DNA of 6,415 bases from a bacterium (GTDB taxonomy: Bacteria > Desulfobacterota > DSWW01), in assembly GCA_030609865.1 (NCBI GenBank), contig JAUWSZ010000156.1, forward strand, positions 1-6,415. The letters are read 5' to 3'. Within the stretch, counting starts at the first letter, position 1, and the number at the start of each line of letters is the position of its first letter. Made by a program: the position numbers and the translations under genes. Of this stretch, positions 1 through 6,415 are shown in pieces. The notes beneath the pieces were generated by a model. It was not told the DNA's origin, ran no database searches, and saw only the letters and a program-made list of their open reading frames with translations.

Positions 1-215
1 AGAAGATCAGGGAGATGGTCCGGGACTGGAATGCGGACGGCATCGTGGGCGAGCGGATCGTCTTCTGCCAGCTCTGGGGCTCGGAAAAGGTGATGACCAA
101 CCTGGAGGCCCAGGAGACCGGAACCCCGACCCTGTGGCTGGAGCGGGAGTATCATATTGGCGGGACCGGGCACACCAAGACCCGTGTGCAGGCCTTCCTG
201 GAAAGCATGGAATAG
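1..215 (+). CDS. BcrC/HgdB-like reductase or dehydratase subunit, 3' end only
   Basis: This is the last 70 codons of a gene whose beginning lies left of the window; the first whole codon is at position 3 and the stop is TAG at 213-215. The tail has the layout of the 2-hydroxyacyl-CoA dehydratase D-component / benzoyl-CoA reductase C-subunit family (PF06050). A cysteine at 66-68 in the context VFCQLWGSEK sits where the family has its third cluster-ligating cysteine. A LEREYHIGG stretch follows, and the protein ends in KTRVQAFLE, matching the usual (K/R)TR(V/I)(Q/E)AFLE ending. Family members hold a [4Fe-4S] cluster and pair with a second homologous subunit in the cytoplasm, which is presumably the next gene 38 bases downstream. 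This C-then-B order is that of bcrC-bcrB and bzdN-bzdO. The family assignment is firm. Whether the enzyme reduces an aromatic ring or dehydrates a 2-hydroxyacyl-CoA cannot be told from this fragment. Confidence 0.85.
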   Translation, partial: KIREMVRDWNADGIVGERIVFCQLWGSEKVMTNLEAQETGTPTLWLEREYHIGGTGHTKTRVQAFLESME

Positions 216-253: not shown

Positions 254-1552
254 ATGGTAGCTCCCATACAGTTCAACAGAGCGAAGTTCAACGAAGTCTT
301 CAACGATCACCTTATCGCGGTCCAGAACATGGCCGAGGCGATGGAGGCGATCGGCGACCCGAGGGATGTCTGTGTCGTCGAGATCATGAAGGCGATAAAG
401 GTCCATCTGCAGGAGCTCTTCGATGCTGTGGAAAGCGGCAAGAAGATGCTTTGGCACGAGTTTCTGTTCTTTCCCGAGATCTTCCGCGGGTTCCCGGATG
501 TGCATCCCTTCTTTGCCGAACTCCTCTGCGGTTTCCTGCCCATGCTGGATCCCGAGGGGCTGAACCCGTACATAGATGCGGCCGAGAACCTGGGTCTTCC
601 CGCGGACATCTGTCCTGCGGACAAAGGTCTCATAGGTGCCGTCCTGCAGGAGGTGCAGCCTCCGGTGGACATGGTCGTCGCCCCCACCTCCCCCTGCGAC
701 TCGGCCATCACCGCATATCAGATCCTGCAACAGCTTATCGAGGCCCCGGTTGTCCAGTGCGACGTGCCCTACTGGCAGAACGAAAGGGGGGTCGACCTGT
801 ACGAGCACCACATCTGGAAGATGATCCGCACCGTTGAGGAAGTATGCAAGACCAAAATGGACTGGGACCGGTGCAAGGAGTCGATGATTCTGGCCAACGA
901 TGCCATCGAATCCTTCATCGCTGAGAACGAGCTGCGGAAGCTCTCCCCCTGCCCACACGCGGGCAAGCTCGGGTTCTACCAGTTCCTGACCCTCTCCGCG
1001 ACTTCCGGGACAGAGCTTGGCAGGGATCTGTGCCGGTTCATCCTCGAGGACGCCAAGCGGTTGGCCGCCGAGAAGAAGGGGGCCGTGGAGGACGAGAAGG
1101 TCCGCCTCTTGATGTACAATCCGGACCCGTTCTACGACCTGGCCGTGCACGACTGGATGGAAGACGAGTTCGGCGCGGTGACGGTGTTGACCTTCTTCGG
1201 CCATGCCACCCAGACGCTGATCGACCCGAGCACGCCGGAGTCGATCGTCCGGGACTACGCCTGGAAGATGATGAATATCTGCATGGCCCGCCAGTACCGG
1301 GGTCCCCACGAGTTCTTCATGGATGATTTCATCACGGCCCTCGAGGGATGGAACGTCGATGCGGTCATCGTCCCGGCCCTGATCCAGTGCAAGCACGGGC
1401 AGGCCACGCACGGATTCGTGCGTGAGGCGTGCAGGGAAAGGGAGAAGCCCCTGCTCCTCGTGGAATTCGATCCCATGGACGCGCGGCCGGTCTCCATTGA
1501 CAAGATCCACAGCACGATCGAGGAGTGGATGGAGACCCAGGTCATCGTGTAG
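254..1552 (+). CDS. BcrB-like subunit of a benzoyl-CoA reductase / 2-hydroxyacyl-CoA dehydratase family enzyme
   Basis: The predicted protein has 432 residues, close to the length of BcrB/BzdO-type subunits (about 430-450). Three cysteines fall in family-like contexts and spacing: Cys120 in LPADICPADKG, Cys148 in PTSPCDS and Cys379 in ALIQCKHG. In characterised dehydratases of this family, three cysteines per subunit hold a [4Fe-4S] cluster and the fourth site is open for substrate or water, so these three are the likely ligands (inferred from position). No signal peptide or membrane segment is visible, so a soluble cytoplasmic protein is expected. The preceding gene encodes the homologous partner, so the two probably form the catalytic heterodimer. 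It would receive electrons from an ATP-dependent activator such as the pair encoded at the right end of the window. The C-terminus (LLLVEFDPMDARP, then a short helix) is family-like. Benzoyl-CoA reduction is possible but not shown; the subfamily could act on another acyl-CoA. Confidence 0.85.
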   Translation: MVAPIQFNRAKFNEVFNDHLIAVQNMAEAMEAIGDPRDVCVVEIMKAIKVHLQELFDAVESGKKMLWHEFLFFPEIFRGFPDVHPFFAELLCGFLPMLDPEGLNPYIDAAENLGLPADICPADKGLIGAVLQEVQPPVDMVVAPTSPCDSAITAYQILQQLIEAPVVQCDVPYWQNERGVDLYEHHIWKMIRTVEEVCKTKMDWDRCKESMILANDAIESFIAENELRKLSPCPHAGKLGFYQFLTLSATSGTELGRDLCRFILEDAKRLAAEKKGAVEDEKVRLLMYNPDPFYDLAVHDWMEDEFGAVTVLTFFGHATQTLIDPSTPESIVRDYAWKMMNICMARQYRGPHEFFMDDFITALEGWNVDAVIVPALIQCKHGQATHGFVREACREREKPLLLVEFDPMDARPVSIDKIHSTIEEWMETQVIV

Positions 1553-1571: not shown

Positions 1572-2363
1572 TTGGCAGAATTCGACGAACAGATCCTGGC
1601 GATCCGAGGATTCACGAGGAAAAGGGAAAAGGAAGGAAAGCCTCTTTCCGAAATACAGTGTGCCGGCTCACCGGATGATCTGGTCGGGGGGTTGCCGGTC
1701 CGTTTCGGACCCGATAACCCACCTTTCGTCATCCTCAAAGAAGACACATTTGCGGAACTGGGCAATCCCGTGCACGGATCCGCCTCGATGGTCCTGTGGA
1801 CGCGGCAGGACGAGCTGATTCGAGATGGCCTGATCACCCGCATCGGTCCCGACATTCCGGAAGCGGAGGGGCAATCCCTCCCCTTCGGCCAGGTCATCCT
1901 GCTGGGTGGAAGCAGGTTGGAAGAAAAGGACCTGGCAAGACTCGAGCGTGCGAGCAACCTGTCCTCTCTCCTCGAAGGCTACATGATCCGCCACGTACCC
2001 CGCAAGCTTTGGAGCCGGGTGAGCCAAGAAGCGGCGGTCAAGGGCTTCTGTTTCGAAACGCTCGGGCGGGCCCTGATGGCACACTACAAGAGGACTTTCC
2101 CCCTTCTTGAAGCTATGGAACTCCTTTTTGTTACCTCCTCGAAGGCGGATGTGGGGGAGCTCGAAGGCATCGGCTTGCAGGCAAAGGGCAAGAGCCTGTC
2201 GATTCGCAAGCTGACACGCACCGAAGAAGGCACCTACGAATGCGACGATCTGACCTGCGACGACTGCCCGGAAAAGCCGATCTGCGACACGATCAGGGAT
2301 GTACTGGTGATCCGAAAGAAGGGCAAGGTCGTAGGTATCGAGGTTGTCCGGGACGGAGGATAG
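1572..2363 (+). CDS. Truncated acetyl-CoA synthase (CODH/ACS) beta-subunit-like protein without the A-cluster domain
   Basis: This frame gives 263 residues from the TTG start. Residues 50-200 resemble the part of the ACS beta subunit (CdhC/AcsB, PF03598) that precedes the A-cluster. Landmarks are FVILKEDTFAELG (52-64), an RIGPDIPEAEG stretch (90-100), SLPFG (102-106), LEGYMIRHVPRKLWSRVS (134-151) and a LGRALMAHYKRTFPLLE helix (164-180). Full-length ACS then has C-x2-C-x8-C and a large C-terminal domain with a Cys-Gly-Cys nickel site. Here there is only a compact C-x4-C-x2-C-x5-C motif (Cys224, 229, 232, 238) and a short basic tail, and no Cys-Gly-Cys. It cannot perform classical acetyl-CoA synthesis. 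A role as an Fe-S electron-transfer, scaffold or docking protein is inferred. It begins 19 bases after the BcrB-like stop and ends 4 bases before the next ATG, so it is probably co-translated with the reductase. Family similarity was judged by eye from remembered conserved blocks. Confidence 0.7.
   Translation: MAEFDEQILAIRGFTRKREKEGKPLSEIQCAGSPDDLVGGLPVRFGPDNPPFVILKEDTFAELGNPVHGSASMVLWTRQDELIRDGLITRIGPDIPEAEGQSLPFGQVILLGGSRLEEKDLARLERASNLSSLLEGYMIRHVPRKLWSRVSQEAAVKGFCFETLGRALMAHYKRTFPLLEAMELLFVTSSKADVGELEGIGLQAKGKSLSIRKLTRTEEGTYECDDLTCDDCPEKPICDTIRDVLVIRKKGKVVGIEVVRDGG
2355..2359 (+). promoter_or_regulatory. Ribosome-binding site deciding the start of the UroD-like gene
   Basis: GGAGG lies 8 bases before the ATG at 2368 and overlaps the last codons of the preceding gene. 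This favours the ATG over the in-frame TTG at 2344, which would add only eight unconserved residues and lie inside the upstream gene. Confidence 0.75.
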
Positions 2364-2367
2364 GAGA

Positions 2368-3423
2368 ATGGAGAAACTGACAGGGAAGATGTACCTGGTG
2401 AGCGCACTGAAGGGACGTCATGCGGATCGGGTACCCGTTACCGTTCTGCCCGGCCCCTTTTGTGCCGGGTTTGCCGGCATCAGCGTGAGGGAGTTCCTGA
2501 CGAACGCGGCGAGCAGCGCAAAGGCTCAGGTGGCCTTCTATGAACGGTTTCAGCCGGACAGCGCGATCGTGGTCAACGATGTCTACCTGGAGAGCGAGGC
2601 CCTGGGCTGCGAGCTCGACTTCCCGGAAGATGACATCTCCCATATCAAGGCGCCTCTGCTCAAGGACAAAGGAGACCTCGGAAGGCTCAAGGTAGCAGAC
2701 CCGCAGCGGGACGGCCGTCTCCCCTACTATCTCGAGGTCTGCGAGCGGATGTCGGCTGCGCTCCCGGATGCGGCCCTGGGAGGGAGTCAGGCAGGGCCGT
2801 GGAACATCGCCATGAACCTTCGAGGCCACGAGACGCTCATGATGGACACCTATGATGATCCGGGCTTCGTGCACGATCTGATGCGGCTCGCCACCGACAC
2901 GGTCAAGGCCTTCTGTGACGCATCCCTCGGCGCACGGGTCGGACCCGCCGTGCACGAGGCGTCTGCCTCCTGCAGCCTCATCTCCCCGACGATCTACAAG
3001 GAGTTCATCCAGCCCTACCACAGGGAGCTGAGAGACTACTTCCGGGCCAAGAAGGTCCACGTGAGCCTCCACATCTGCGGCTTCATCGATCCGATGGTGG
3101 AGGACGTGATCGACGTGGGCTTGAGTCCCCTGAGCATCGACAACCCCACTTCCCTGGAAAAGGTCATGGGCCTGGCCAAGGAGAAGAAGATCACCGTCAT
3201 GGGGAACGTGGAGACGATCTTGTTTCACAGAGGGACAAGGGAGGCCATGGAAGAAGATGTCCGGAGGTGTATCGATACGGCCGCCCCTCACAGCCACTTT
3301 ATCCTGGCCTCGGGATGTGAGATCCCGAGAAACTCGACGGTCGACCGAATCGACCACTACTTCACATACGCAAGAGCCTATGGCCGGGAGTTTATGGAGA
3401 AGCTTCAAGGGGGAGGAAAATGA
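2368..3423 (+). CDS. UroD-superfamily corrinoid-type methyltransferase (MtaA/MtbA/CmuA-like)
   Basis: The 351-residue protein belongs to the uroporphyrinogen decarboxylase superfamily (PF01208), but to its methyltransferase branch. It lacks the MRQAGR-type N-terminal motif of true haem-pathway UroD. It has the H-x-C ... C zinc signature of MtaA/MtbA/CmuA-like enzymes: His235 and Cys237 in LHICGF, and Cys317 in ASGCEIP. Other superfamily marks are SPLSIDN (253-259), MGNVETILFHRGT (278-290) and VYLESEALGCELDFPEDD (72-89). Characterised relatives are cytoplasmic TIM-barrel proteins in which zinc activates a thiol that accepts a methyl group from a methyl-corrinoid protein. Here the acceptor and the corrinoid partner are unknown, and no corrinoid protein is in the window. 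Placement four bases after the ACS-like gene and overlapping the next gene at its stop suggests a shared pathway. UroD-like genes without a known role are common in anaerobic aromatic- and acyl-CoA clusters, so a methyltransferase activity remains an inference. Confidence 0.85.
   Translation: MEKLTGKMYLVSALKGRHADRVPVTVLPGPFCAGFAGISVREFLTNAASSAKAQVAFYERFQPDSAIVVNDVYLESEALGCELDFPEDDISHIKAPLLKDKGDLGRLKVADPQRDGRLPYYLEVCERMSAALPDAALGGSQAGPWNIAMNLRGHETLMMDTYDDPGFVHDLMRLATDTVKAFCDASLGARVGPAVHEASASCSLISPTIYKEFIQPYHRELRDYFRAKKVHVSLHICGFIDPMVEDVIDVGLSPLSIDNPTSLEKVMGLAKEKKITVMGNVETILFHRGTREAMEEDVRRCIDTAAPHSHFILASGCEIPRNSTVDRIDHYFTYARAYGREFMEKLQGGGK
3412..3416 (+). promoter_or_regulatory. Ribosome-binding site for the small ATC-hydrolase-like gene
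   Basis: GGAGG lies at the very end of the UroD-like gene. It is 9 bases from ATG 3426 but only 3 bases from ATG 3420, so 3426 is the better start by spacing. Either start leaves the ribosome-binding site inside the upstream gene and implies translational coupling. Confidence 0.65.
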
Positions 3424-3425
3424 CA

Positions 3426-3935
3426 ATGGACAAACACCCTGTGCTGCCTGAGGACAAATGGCCGGAGATCCGGAAGGTCAAGGCCTCGAACAAGACGGGA
3501 TGGAGCTACTTCGAGAACCTGGTCAAGACCCTCCATCAAGAACTTGGGGAGGAGAAGACCGCAGAGTTGCTGGAAGTGTTCATGAGGGAAAATGCGAAAA
3601 GATTTGTTGTGCCCGCCATGAAGTCCTTCGGGCTCGAAGGGAACGACGCGTGGTCCCTTGCAAGCTACTTCAAGCTGGCCACCGGGGACATCATCGGCTA
3701 CAAGACGGAACTCTCGAGGCCCGAGCCGAACGTGGTCAGCTACCGCCTTTACCCCCCCTGCCTCTGGTTCCCGAATCTCGACATCCCGCCGAGTTTCTGC
3801 GAGGCCCTGGGCTGTTTCGAGAAGGAAGCGGCCAAGATCGTCAACCCGAACATCGAAATCAAGCATACCAAGCTCATGACCGCCGGGGACGACTACTGCG
3901 AGATCCTCTTCATCGAGAAGGACCCCTCCTCCTAG
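3426..3935 (+). CDS. L-2-amino-thiazoline-4-carboxylate hydrolase-like family protein
   Basis: The protein has 169 residues from ATG 3426; ATG 3420, which overlaps the previous stop as ATGA, would give 171. The second half has the layout of the ATC-hydrolase-like family (PF14196): PPCLWFPN (110-117), a cysteine pair in SFCEALGCFEKE (123-134), NPNIEIKHTKLMTAGDDYC (140-158) and a closing hydrophobic strand. The conserved cysteines are Cys112, 125, 130 and 158. The named member opens the thiazoline ring on the way to cysteine, but most relatives next to anaerobic enzymes have no known substrate, so that reaction should not be assumed. No signal peptide or membrane segment is visible. Tight coupling to the UroD-like gene suggests the two act on the same substrate or form a complex. 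The several cysteines could bind a metal or take part in catalysis. Confidence 0.65.
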   Translation: MDKHPVLPEDKWPEIRKVKASNKTGWSYFENLVKTLHQELGEEKTAELLEVFMRENAKRFVVPAMKSFGLEGNDAWSLASYFKLATGDIIGYKTELSRPEPNVVSYRLYPPCLWFPNLDIPPSFCEALGCFEKEAAKIVNPNIEIKHTKLMTAGDDYCEILFIEKDPSS

Positions 3936-3973: not shown

Positions 3974-4729
3974 ATGAGAAAAGTGCAGTTGTACTGCCTG
4001 ATCGCTCTGAATATCGTTGCCTTTCATGCCCCCGGCATCTGGCTGTTCTTCTTTCTCCTTTTCCCGGAACAGGGCAGCGGAGGCATCTCGGACGCCCTTT
4101 TCAATGCCCTTCTGGTCGTCTTCTGGGGGGGCACGCACAGTATCGTGGCACGGAAGTTTTTCAGGGATTTCCTGGCCGGGTTGGTGGGCAAAGACTTTGT
4201 CAAACTGGCCTTCACGGTCATTGCCGGCATCACGCAATGTGTAATGCTGTACTACTGGCGGCCCCTCGACGGAGTTGTCTGGCATGCCGAGGGAGTCCTG
4301 TATTGGGTTTCCGCCTGCTTGTTCGTTTGTGCCTTTGGAGCGGTCTTCTACTGTTCGATCCTGCTCGACTACATGGAGGTATTGGGCGTTCGAAAGATCG
4401 TGCGTCATTTCCGTGGGGAGCCGGACCCTGCTCCTGCCCTTTGCCTCAAGGGACCTTACCGGTATTGCCGCCATCCCGTGTACCTCGCAACGGTGGCTTC
4501 CCTCTGGGTGGGGCCTGTGATGACGACCGGCCGTCTCGAGTTCGCGTTCCTCGTCACGATCTACGTCCTGATCGGTACATGGTTCGAGGAAAGGGACACG
4601 AGGAAGGACATGGGCGAGGCCTACGACCTCTACCGTGCCAATGTGCCCATGTGGATTCCGCGGCTGACGCCCTGGGAAGGCGATGGCAAGGGGCAGCGCG
4701 GGCAGGGAAAACGAACCAGTAAAAACTAA
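3974..4729 (+). CDS. Integral-membrane methyltransferase resembling methanethiol S-methyltransferase (MddA/NnrU/ICMT group)
   Basis: The 251-residue protein has about five hydrophobic segments (roughly 7-30, 41-58, 75-95, 107-131 and 169-204). Its C-terminal half has the S-adenosylmethionine-binding pattern of membrane methyltransferases of the isoprenylcysteine-carboxylmethyltransferase/NnrU/PEMT group: GPYRYCRHPVYLA (160-172), VMTTGRLEFA (182-191), EERD (205-208) and AYDLYRANVPMWIPR (216-230). The GTHSIVARKFFRDF block (53-66), the YWRPLDGVVW block (94-103) and the MTTGRLEFA stretch are especially like MddA, which methylates methanethiol to dimethyl sulfide. Thiol methylation is therefore the favoured reaction, but other small-thiol, metalloid or lipid acceptors are possible. 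It starts 38 bases after the previous gene with only a weak purine-rich GAAG before the ATG, so it may be translated less than its neighbours or belong to the operon only loosely. The tail after residue 235 is basic and not conserved. It is the last plus-strand gene before the AT-rich spacer. Confidence 0.75.
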   Translation: MRKVQLYCLIALNIVAFHAPGIWLFFFLLFPEQGSGGISDALFNALLVVFWGGTHSIVARKFFRDFLAGLVGKDFVKLAFTVIAGITQCVMLYYWRPLDGVVWHAEGVLYWVSACLFVCAFGAVFYCSILLDYMEVLGVRKIVRHFRGEPDPAPALCLKGPYRYCRHPVYLATVASLWVGPVMTTGRLEFAFLVTIYVLIGTWFEERDTRKDMGEAYDLYRANVPMWIPRLTPWEGDGKGQRGQGKRTSKN

Positions 4730-4942: not shown

Positions 4943-5749
4943 CTAGGCAGCATTCTCACTGGATAGCAGTATCTTGGCGTAGCGTTCTTTGGCGAACAGG
5001 GCCGCCCCGAGAGCACCGACGATCTGGGGATCGATGCCCAGATCACAGACTTCCCTGCCGATCACCCTTTCCAGGGCCTTTACGACTGCCGTGTTTTTTG
5101 CTACCCCCCCGGTAATGCAAACCTCATCCTCCAGGCCGACCTTTCCGACGAGCCGGTTGACCCGGGTCGCGAGGGTCTCTGCAACCCCTAACGCCACGTC
5201 CTGCATGGTTCGTCCTTCCCCGAGGTGGACCATCACGTCGAACTGGGTGAAAACCGTGCATATGCTGCTGATCAGGACCGGGTCTACCCCCTCGAGGGCC
5301 ATCCGGCCGAGTTCGGAAACATGCACGCCGAAGGTCTTTGCGATGCCCTCCAGGAACCGTCCCGTTCCGGCGGCGCACTTGTCGTTCATCACGAAATCTT
5401 TCAGATCGCCAGCCTCGTCGACCCGGATCGCCTTGCAGTCCTGTCCGCCGACGTCGATGATCGTCCGCACGCCCGGGTTTGCCCAACAGGCGCCTTTCCC
5501 GTGACAGGAAATCTCGGAGATGTTGTGCCGGGCAAAGGGGATTCTTTCCCGCCCGTATCCGGTGCTCACGCAAAAGGCGATGTCCTCCAGCCGAACCTTT
5601 GCCTCCTGTAATACCGTATCCATGACCGTGGTGGCGGAATCCACCGGATTCGGCTTCACGATGATGATAGAGGACGCGATCATCTTGTCGTCATTCAAGA
5701 GGACCGCCTCTGCACTCATCGATCCGACGTCGACACCCGCAAAGATCAT
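4943..5749 (-). CDS. BcrD/HgdC-type ATP-dependent activator subunit (complete)
   Basis: The 268-residue protein has the length and full motif set of the BadF/BadG/BcrA/BcrD ATPase family (PF01869, ASKHA fold): the N-terminal phosphate loop GVDVGSMSAE (5-14), STGYGRERI (62-70), EISCHGKGA (79-87), the second phosphate motif IIDVGGQDCK (97-106), NDKCAAGTGRFLE (122-134), the adenosine motif ITGGVAKN (212-219) and GALGAALFA (245-253). Cys125 and Cys164 match the two cysteines, 39 residues apart, that hold one [4Fe-4S] cluster between two subunits. ATP hydrolysis in such dimers drives low-potential electron transfer to the reductase or dehydratase component. The region after Cys164 reads TVFTQFDVM instead of the usual AVFAESEV, which is a departure from homodimeric activators. 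The gene overlaps the upstream A-like gene by four bases (ATGA), with GGAGG six bases before its ATG. The likely client is the BcrC/BcrB-like pair at the left end of the window. Confidence 0.88.
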   Translation of the reverse strand: MIFAGVDVGSMSAEAVLLNDDKMIASSIIIVKPNPVDSATTVMDTVLQEAKVRLEDIAFCVSTGYGRERIPFARHNISEISCHGKGACWANPGVRTIIDVGGQDCKAIRVDEAGDLKDFVMNDKCAAGTGRFLEGIAKTFGVHVSELGRMALEGVDPVLISSICTVFTQFDVMVHLGEGRTMQDVALGVAETLATRVNRLVGKVGLEDEVCITGGVAKNTAVVKALERVIGREVCDLGIDPQIVGALGAALFAKERYAKILLSSENAA

Positions 5750-6415
5750 GTCGTACCTCCGTTGGCATTTGGGGCTCGCGCAGCACCGACAGCAGCGATA
5801 AGATCCGGTTCAGGTCGAAAGACGTGCAGCTTCTTCCGGAGGCCTCCCTGGAGCAGTTCGAAGATTCTCTCGTTGTTCGCGAGCCCTCCCCCGAGGACGA
5901 GGGCGTCTTTTGCATTGATCTTCTTGCACAGGGAGGCGATGTTCTTCGACAGGGAATCGAGGATGGCCGCGACGATGTTGGCCACGGATTCTCCATCGTT
6001 GATCAGGCTCACCACCTCGCTTTCGGCAAAAACGGCGCACTGGCTGCTCATGGCGAGCTTCTTGTCGGCGGACCGGGCGATGTCGGCGCTACTCTCTACG
6101 GTGCAATGAAGAGCCTCGAGGATGACCTCCAGAAACTTGCCGGCTCCGGAAGCGCACTTGTCGTTCATCATGTACCGAAGCACCCTTCCCTTATCGTTTA
6201 CCGACAAGGCCACGCTCTGTTGGGTCCCCAGGCAGAGCACGGACCGGCAGGATGGCTCCGCCCACACGGCTGCCCTGGCAAGGCAGTTGATCGTGGCTTC
6301 GGTTCTCCCCTTTGCCGAGGCCTTGCCCTGTCCCCAACCCGTGATCACGATGTCGTCGAAGTCGTCCGCCTTGACTCCCTTCTCGGCCGTGATGTTCTCC
6401 AGGGCCATTTCCATC
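5746..6415 (-). CDS. BcrA-type ATP-dependent activator subunit, N-terminus outside the window
   Basis: The last 222 residues are present. The codon ATG at 6414-6412 is probably internal, because the N-terminal phosphate loop (GxDxGS) is missing; comparison with the D-like paralogue suggests about 40 or more residues lie beyond the edge. Visible motifs are VITGWGQGKA (residues 23-32 of the visible part), NDKCASGAGKFLE (84-96), SSQCAVFAESEVVSL (123-137), LVLGGGLANN (172-181) and LIAAVGAARA (205-214). Cys87 and Cys126 are 39 residues apart, as in the D-like subunit and in HgdC, so the shared [4Fe-4S] cluster should be kept. The second phosphate motif is degenerate: the position of DVGGQDxK reads CLGTQQSV. 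That may change ATP handling in this subunit. It is translationally coupled to the D-like gene by an ATGA overlap, and together they probably form an A/D heterodimer that activates a benzoyl-CoA-reductase-like enzyme. Confidence 0.85.
   Translation of the reverse strand, partial: MEMALENITAEKGVKADDFDDIVITGWGQGKASAKGRTEATINCLARAAVWAEPSCRSVLCLGTQQSVALSVNDKGRVLRYMMNDKCASGAGKFLEVILEALHCTVESSADIARSADKKLAMSSQCAVFAESEVVSLINDGESVANIVAAILDSLSKNIASLCKKINAKDALVLGGGLANNERIFELLQGGLRKKLHVFRPEPDLIAAVGAARAPNANGGTT
5756..5760 (-). promoter_or_regulatory. Ribosome-binding site of the D-like ATPase gene inside the A-like gene
   Basis: On the minus strand GGAGG lies six bases before the ATG at 5749-5747 and within the last codons of the A-like gene. 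With the four-base stop/start overlap, this points to coupled, near-stoichiometric synthesis of the two ATPase subunits. Confidence 0.8.

Follow-up and report, generated by a model that had tools for sequence, protein, structure and literature searches.

The 6,415-nucleotide stretch analysed here (the window; positions 1 to 6,415 of contig JAUWSZ010000156.1, Desulfobacterota assembly GCA_030609865.1) carries, at 1572–2363 on the forward strand, a gene for a 263-residue protein whose family we refer to by the working name short CdhC. Comparison of its sequence with those of its relatives indicates that this family is a lineage separate from acetyl-CoA synthase (ACS), and that it belongs to a conserved gene set in which, in most loci, it accompanies a reductase of the benzoyl-CoA reductase (BCR)/double-cubane class and, also in most loci, a CooC-type ATPase. 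We tentatively favour the explanation that short CdhC serves an ATP-driven acyl-CoA reductase as an accessory subunit with a metal cluster, and that the CooC-like ATPase loads it; the metal, the docking and the substrate are inferred.

The family was delimited by a genome scan of the best 80 loci of 99 relatives. Sixty-two of these loci (L001–L062) encode short proteins, 16 encode long ACS with the Cys-Gly-Cys motif, L063 is an ACS whose C-terminal domain is partial, and the short-family gene of L077, truncated by the end of its contig, was excluded from the 62; the 63 loci mentioned below are the window and L001–L062. The initial annotation had proposed that the window protein resembles the part of ACS that precedes the A-cluster, and a profile search showed this likeness to be real, with a match to Pfam CdhC (PF03598) over residues 42–191 (60.3 bits, cut-off 24). 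The same model matched 94 of 94 members of a family alignment (A2) that took in 38 of the 120 listed homologues and 55 of the 62 short loci, and left out L008, L038 and L050 (at least 300 residues by start choice) and L010, L046, L047 and L059 (cut). All 15 PDB sequences matching short CdhC at E up to 1 were ACS. In a profile–profile comparison, the 94 short proteins matched 15 full-length archaeal-type ACS with a probability of 99.8 and an E-value of 4e-29, and the alignment reached the first of the ACS cysteines that we take to be the A-cluster ligands: C224, C229 and C238 pair with three ACS cysteines, C232 pairs with a Phe, and the following ACS cysteine and the Cys-Gly-Cys have no counterpart. 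As aligned, short CdhC ends where the ACS metal site begins, with a cysteine spacing of its own. The window protein has six cysteines (30, 160, 224, 229, 232 and 238), none of them in a Cys-Gly-Cys of the kind that provides the ACS nickel ligands, and exactly 25 residues remain after Cys238, in line with the end originally placed about 25 residues past the cysteine knot. Residues G136, Y137, M138, W147 and R149 are invariant or almost so in the short family, and ACS keeps this stretch as well, suggesting that a CoA-binding or partner-binding face may be kept. The only other Pfam match, zf-SCNM1 (E 0.04), was under its cut-off and a zinc finger was rejected; a zinc site is possible.

The hosts of short CdhC include Chloroflexi/Dehalococcoidia, Deltaproteobacteria, Ignavibacteriae, Bacteroidales, Spirochaetes, Helarchaeota and Jordarchaeia, and one of them is represented by a complete genome, that of Desulfoluna limicola strain ASN36. 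In a tree built from 57 short rows and 20 ACS rows (L010, L046, L047, L049, L050 and L059 were omitted), one branch with a Shimodaira–Hasegawa-like approximate likelihood ratio test (SH-aLRT) support of 100 divided the two, and the bacterial and Asgard archaeal short rows fell together; long branches meet at this dividing branch, so the root and its exact placement are unsure. The model of the ACS C-terminal domain (PF19436) did not match the window protein and, on the six frames of the window and the 62 related loci, gave nothing at E up to 10; as a control, it matched 27 of 27 ACS-bearing loci among 39 comparison loci. No frameshifted ACS remnant therefore adjoins the short gene. The absence of the A-cluster Cys-Gly-Cys and of the catalytic C-terminal domain, first read from the window alone, thus agrees with both the cysteine inventory and the six-frame search. 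A decayed or frameshifted ACS was rejected, given the separate short lineage, the lack of the C-terminal domain in the 63 loci and the retention of the cysteines. The tree and the neighbourhood counts given below lend good support to the proposal that a separate family has put the ACS middle-domain fold to use next to an enzyme resembling benzoyl-CoA reductase. Two different short CdhC loci come from a single assembly in the pairs L002/L011 (isolate S015_6) and L022/L031, so paralogous systems coexist in some genomes.

Conservation of the four tail cysteines depends on how widely the family is sampled. All four (224, 229, 232 and 238) are present in 121 of 121 sequences when the query and the best 120 of 490 homologues are considered. 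In the wider genome set, where 62 of the 63 loci cover the region, C229 and C232 are each present in 62/62, C238 in 61/62 and C224 in 45/62. The four-cysteine motif described in the initial annotation therefore stands for the closest homologues, but a universal four-cysteine cluster was rejected for the wider family, in which 17 of 62 loci are without the first cysteine.

To survey the neighbourhood, models of four neighbouring genes were run on the six frames of the 63 loci, and the counts refer to loci with sufficient flank. Of 55 such loci, 48 have a BzdO-like subunit (s1) nearby, 48 a BzdN-like subunit (s3) and 44 an activase; a frequent gene order is s3, s1, activase, short CdhC, CooC-like gene. 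The expected linkage of short CdhC-like proteins to HGD-D (PF06050) genes was thus recovered. The window itself contains two HGD-D subunits and the BadF-type activase, with one gene of each kind cut by the window ends. Its s3 gene (3–215, forward strand, PF06050 50.8 bits) retains only the last 70 residues, with double_cubane as the top NCBIfam match (40.1 bits over model positions 304–372, below the cut-off of 350), and is followed by s1 (254–1552, forward strand, 432 residues, PF06050 154.2 bits). The BadF/BcrA-type ATP-dependent activase lies on the reverse strand at 4943–5749 (TIGR00241 236.9 bits, cut-off 125.4; PF01869 194.4 bits), and on the same strand another activase-type ATPase (5746–6414; TIGR00241 152.2 bits, PF01869 121.6 bits) is truncated where the window stops. 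The equivalog cut-offs for the bzd genes (TIGR03190/03191/03192) were not reached in the window: BzdO scored 15.2 of 448.6 bits, BzdQ 217.2 of 380.2 bits and BzdN 11.8 of 453.8 bits, the last on a fragment.

The cysteines of the two HGD-D subunits are informative about the kind of enzyme. Six cysteines are present in s3 of 48 of 48 full-length relatives, and in the alignment they correspond to the double-cubane ligands of BzdN described in PMC11971306. According to the same paper, the 2-hydroxyacyl-CoA dehydratases have lost the double cubane, so its retention in s3 argues for a reductase. When s1 of the window is aligned to the cysteines of DCCP, the double-cubane protein, Cys stands in each of the three cluster-ligand columns (Cys120, Cys148 and Cys379). 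In the multiple alignments of s1 across the loci, Cys occupies two of these columns; of the 50 loci readable at the third, 29 have His and 21 have Cys (one gap and 12 loci without s1 were left out). This third column equates with Cys380 of BzdO through L005, whose Cys lines up there (i-E 0.0072). A pairwise alignment of the His-type L018 with BzdO confirmed the first two ligand positions; its third stretch is short and not significant (score −2.6), and there Cys380 falls two residues from the His. In the His-type proteins, of which L006, L018 and L042 are examples with GHMGHKDG or AHIGHRD, the His likely replaces Cys380 of BzdO, and this may give rise to a differently ligated active-site cluster.

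The other recurrent neighbour is a CooC/AcsF-like ATPase. In 42 of 58 loci its gene begins downstream of short CdhC, on the same strand and at a distance of no more than 700 bases; anywhere in the locus, it is present in 50 of 63. Among proteins of solved structure the ATPase is closest to CooC of Carboxydothermus (E 6.8e-11), to whose Cys112/Cys114 a CYC motif aligns, and the CxC is present in 39 of 39 short-linked ATPases. In the CooC-1 structure this pair binds zinc, with which nickel competes for the site (PMC6006190). An ATPase tree of 62 rows, which used 39 short-linked genes out of the 50 loci that have one, placed these 39 and 8 from elsewhere on a common branch with an SH-aLRT of 94 (below the 95 mark), and a single label change suffices among the short-linked and ACS-linked rows. 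Real ACS was matched in 15 of 29 host genomes and no ACS match was obtained in the other 14 (30 of the 62 loci were sampled and most of the genomes are drafts, which makes absence weak evidence). The idea that the CooC-like gene is a leftover of a carbon monoxide dehydrogenase/ACS operon is not favoured, considering these 14 genomes together with the lack of the ACS C-terminal domain in the 63 loci and the separate branch of the ATPases.

The pairing of both genes was also evaluated in 148 genomes of one class, in a survey centred on G009 (the host of L018, Dehalococcoidia). Short CdhC was present in 12 genomes and the matching ATPase in precisely the same 12, the two genes being on the same strand and less than 100 bases apart in 12 of 12; at least three of these genomes (G005, G006 and G009) had already supplied loci. 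The thresholds (at least 250 bits for short CdhC; at least 57% identity over the full length for the ATPase) were set at gaps seen in the lists, the next matches being at 95.8 bits and 43% identity. The naive probability of this co-occurrence is p = 6.9e-18, a value that ignores shared descent. In addition, the distance matrices of short CdhC, s1, s3 and CooC correlate with coefficients of 0.76–0.86 across 31 loci, and for short CdhC against CooC the observed value was reached in 0 of 1000 permutations. The initial annotation had suggested docking with, or electron transfer to, the reductase; the strongest clue, the CooC-type neighbour seen in most relatives, points at least as much to the loading or assembly of a metal centre as to electron feeding.

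In the explanation that we favour, the invariant CxC of the CooC-like ATPase would take up a metal ion, which an ATP-driven transfer would deliver to short CdhC, either at its cysteine tail or at a cluster located there, in the way AcsF reportedly acts on ACS. Once metallated, short CdhC would join the reductase as a partner, its ACS-like surface (GYM...W-x-R) would be a docking or CoA-handling face, and its cluster would tune the BzdO-type catalytic cluster or relay electrons to it. An extension of this explanation, which we regard as unlikely, is that short CdhC and its ATPase define a nickel-dependent or heterometal branch of the BCR/DCCP class, in which an ACS-derived metal site, a double-cubane store and a catalytic cluster often containing His would allow reductions beyond those of the known enzymes.

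Several observations weigh against the accessory-subunit explanation. The CooC-like gene is not directly downstream in 16 of 58 loci, and it is not encoded in the window and not next door in the window's nearest relatives in the family tree (L001–L003), which do have s1, s3 and the activase near short CdhC. Genomes G001 and G002 hold CooC-like genes elsewhere (L091 and L093) that the tree places among the short-linked ones, and in G003 one gene (L094) is placed among the short-linked ATPases and another (L095) just outside; in this clade the ATPase would work in trans. In two of the 12 genomes with the pair, G009 and G116, short CdhC occurs a second time with no such ATPase as its neighbour. 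The ATPase also matches the MinD, ParA and NifH models and, the Cys-Gly-Cys nickel ligands being absent from short CdhC, the case for nickel rests solely on this neighbour. The s1 gene is missing in 7 of 55 loci; four of these have less than 400 bp upstream, and L020, L032 and L039 are without it despite about 10 kb. Cys224 is missing in L034–L036 (Jordarchaeia), L048 and L050–L062, most of these 17 loci having two activase genes. The tail is modelled poorly, with predicted local distance difference test (pLDDT) values in blocks of 41–63 from residue 211 in the model of the window protein and of 53–74 from residue 221 in a second model. Finally, joint inheritance of an operon also gives correlated distances, without physical contact.

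Among the other explanations considered, it is possible, though doubtful, that short CdhC is a scaffold or maturase that, with the CooC-like ATPase, builds or inserts the unusual clusters of the reductase, either the double cubane or the catalytic cluster that in many loci apparently has His for one Cys, and then departs. An ATPase of its own subfamily adjoins the gene in most loci and the tail is rich in cysteine, and the His in the third s1 column (29/50) suggests that the reductases may carry a non-standard cluster; however, loci with three Cys in s1, including the window, have short CdhC as well, the retained ACS-like stretch is not obviously needed by a pure scaffold, and the available text of PMC11971306, in which BzdNO was produced and its structure solved, mentions no such helper.

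A role as an iron–sulfur protein supplying electrons to the activase or to the double-cubane subunit, with the CooC-like gene being incidental or helping to build the cluster, agrees with the location of the cysteine tail at the position of the ACS cubane and with the linkage to genes of an ATP-driven reductase. We consider this role decidedly unlikely, since part of the family has just three of the cysteines, a large ACS domain would make an unusual carrier, and the link of the ATPase to short CdhC in 12 of 12 genomes goes beyond what is expected of an incidental helper. The least probable of these alternatives is that short CdhC acts as an adaptor: by binding CoA or a corrinoid protein it would connect the reductase with methyl or acyl transfer, and its cysteines would hold a structural metal such as zinc. 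The middle domain of ACS is in contact with CoA and, according to a published model, also with the corrinoid protein (PMC12289521), an MtaA/CmuA-like URO-D gene lies directly downstream in the window and in L001, and the sub-threshold zinc-finger match covers the tail; nevertheless, none of the annotated genes of the window encodes a corrinoid protein, and URO-D genes are present in just 4 of the 63 loci (the window, L001, L034 and L035, in the last two on the other strand).

In the window, the short CdhC gene has a TTG start codon with GGAG five bases before it, the upstream stop lies 19 nt before the gene and the downstream ATG 4 nt after it, which agrees with the neat fit between two operon neighbours noted at the outset. 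The downstream gene (2368–3423, forward strand) encodes the URO-D superfamily protein (PF01208, 213.9 bits), which contains HxC at 235–237 and Cys317 and falls below the MtaA/CmuA cut-off (TIGR01463, 131.9 against 235.4 bits). As in L001, it is followed by a gene for a 171-residue protein (3420–3935, forward strand), which here overlaps its end and has no family above cut-off (ATC_hydrolase, 15.5 bits, cut-off 28.1); homologues were seen after the URO-D gene in L001 and, distant from the short gene, in L009. The gene at 3974–4729 (forward strand) encodes a membrane methyltransferase-like protein of the NnrU/MddA type (NF045656, 126 bits, cut-off 270; PF07298, 26.6 bits) that resembles the methanethiol S-methyltransferase MddA; its homologue in L001 is near the cluster on the opposite strand, and we are unsure whether it belongs to the window operon. 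A PHROGs search gave no match and a phage origin was rejected.

Other genes in the related loci touch on the possible substrate. Linalool dehydratase/isomerase-like genes are present in six of them (L017:4474–6171, L025:6010–7992, L027:13307–15091, L041:4064–5734, L042:1927–3639 and L043:563–2275), the L042 protein having been assigned by PF18566 (234.3 bits) and the other five by similarity to it, which makes terpenoid breakdown one candidate substrate area. Upstream in L019 there are thiolase-like (PF22691) and ChsH2-type OB (PF01796) proteins, and L018 has the same clusters; both loci share another cluster, whose member in L030 is an acyl-CoA dehydrogenase. These upstream genes hint at CoA-ester catabolism. 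Beside the three-cysteine subfamily, in L050–L057 and L060–L062, a conserved protein of about 417–539 residues is encoded upstream of s3 (cluster 5, 11 loci), and its L054 member gave no Pfam or NCBIfam match.

These observations imply that a piece of ACS, a central enzyme of the Wood–Ljungdahl pathway, exists as a widespread separate protein in another enzyme system, which bears on the modular assembly of ACS and on the role of its middle domain. They also suggest that, in uncultured anaerobes, uncharacterised ATP-driven acyl-CoA reductases may depend on an additional metal centre and on a metal-insertion ATPase of their own; in that case, expression without the short CdhC and CooC genes might yield an inactive enzyme.

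Compared with known systems, short CdhC shares the middle domain PF03598 with ACS (CdhC/AcsB), but it is without PF19436 and the Cys-Gly-Cys nickel ligands and has its own cysteine spacing, N-terminal stretch and gene neighbours. As in the class I benzoyl-CoA reductase BzdNOPQ, DCCP and the 2-hydroxyacyl-CoA dehydratases, its neighbours comprise two HGD-D subunits and a BadF-type activase, and the six double-cubane cysteines of BzdN are likewise found in s3 (48/48 relatives); unlike BzdNOPQ, these genes fall below the equivalog cut-offs, often include a single activase, are joined by short CdhC and the CooC-like gene, and in 29 of 50 loci carry His at the third ligand column of s1. The ATPases carry the CxC of the nickel-insertion ATPases CooC and AcsF, but form their own branch away from the ACS-linked genes (SH-aLRT 94), in loci without the ACS C-terminal domain. 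In its available text, PMC4443539 counts PF03598 as one of the Pfam families richest in putative partial domains and names UniProt B8FZT4 as a protein with just one of the structural parts, whereas it states no family, neighbours or function for such proteins. A literature search, which reached little subscription content, returned no description of the short CdhC family or of its pairing with these genes. Each part is known in kind, whereas the separate family and the combination appear to be new.
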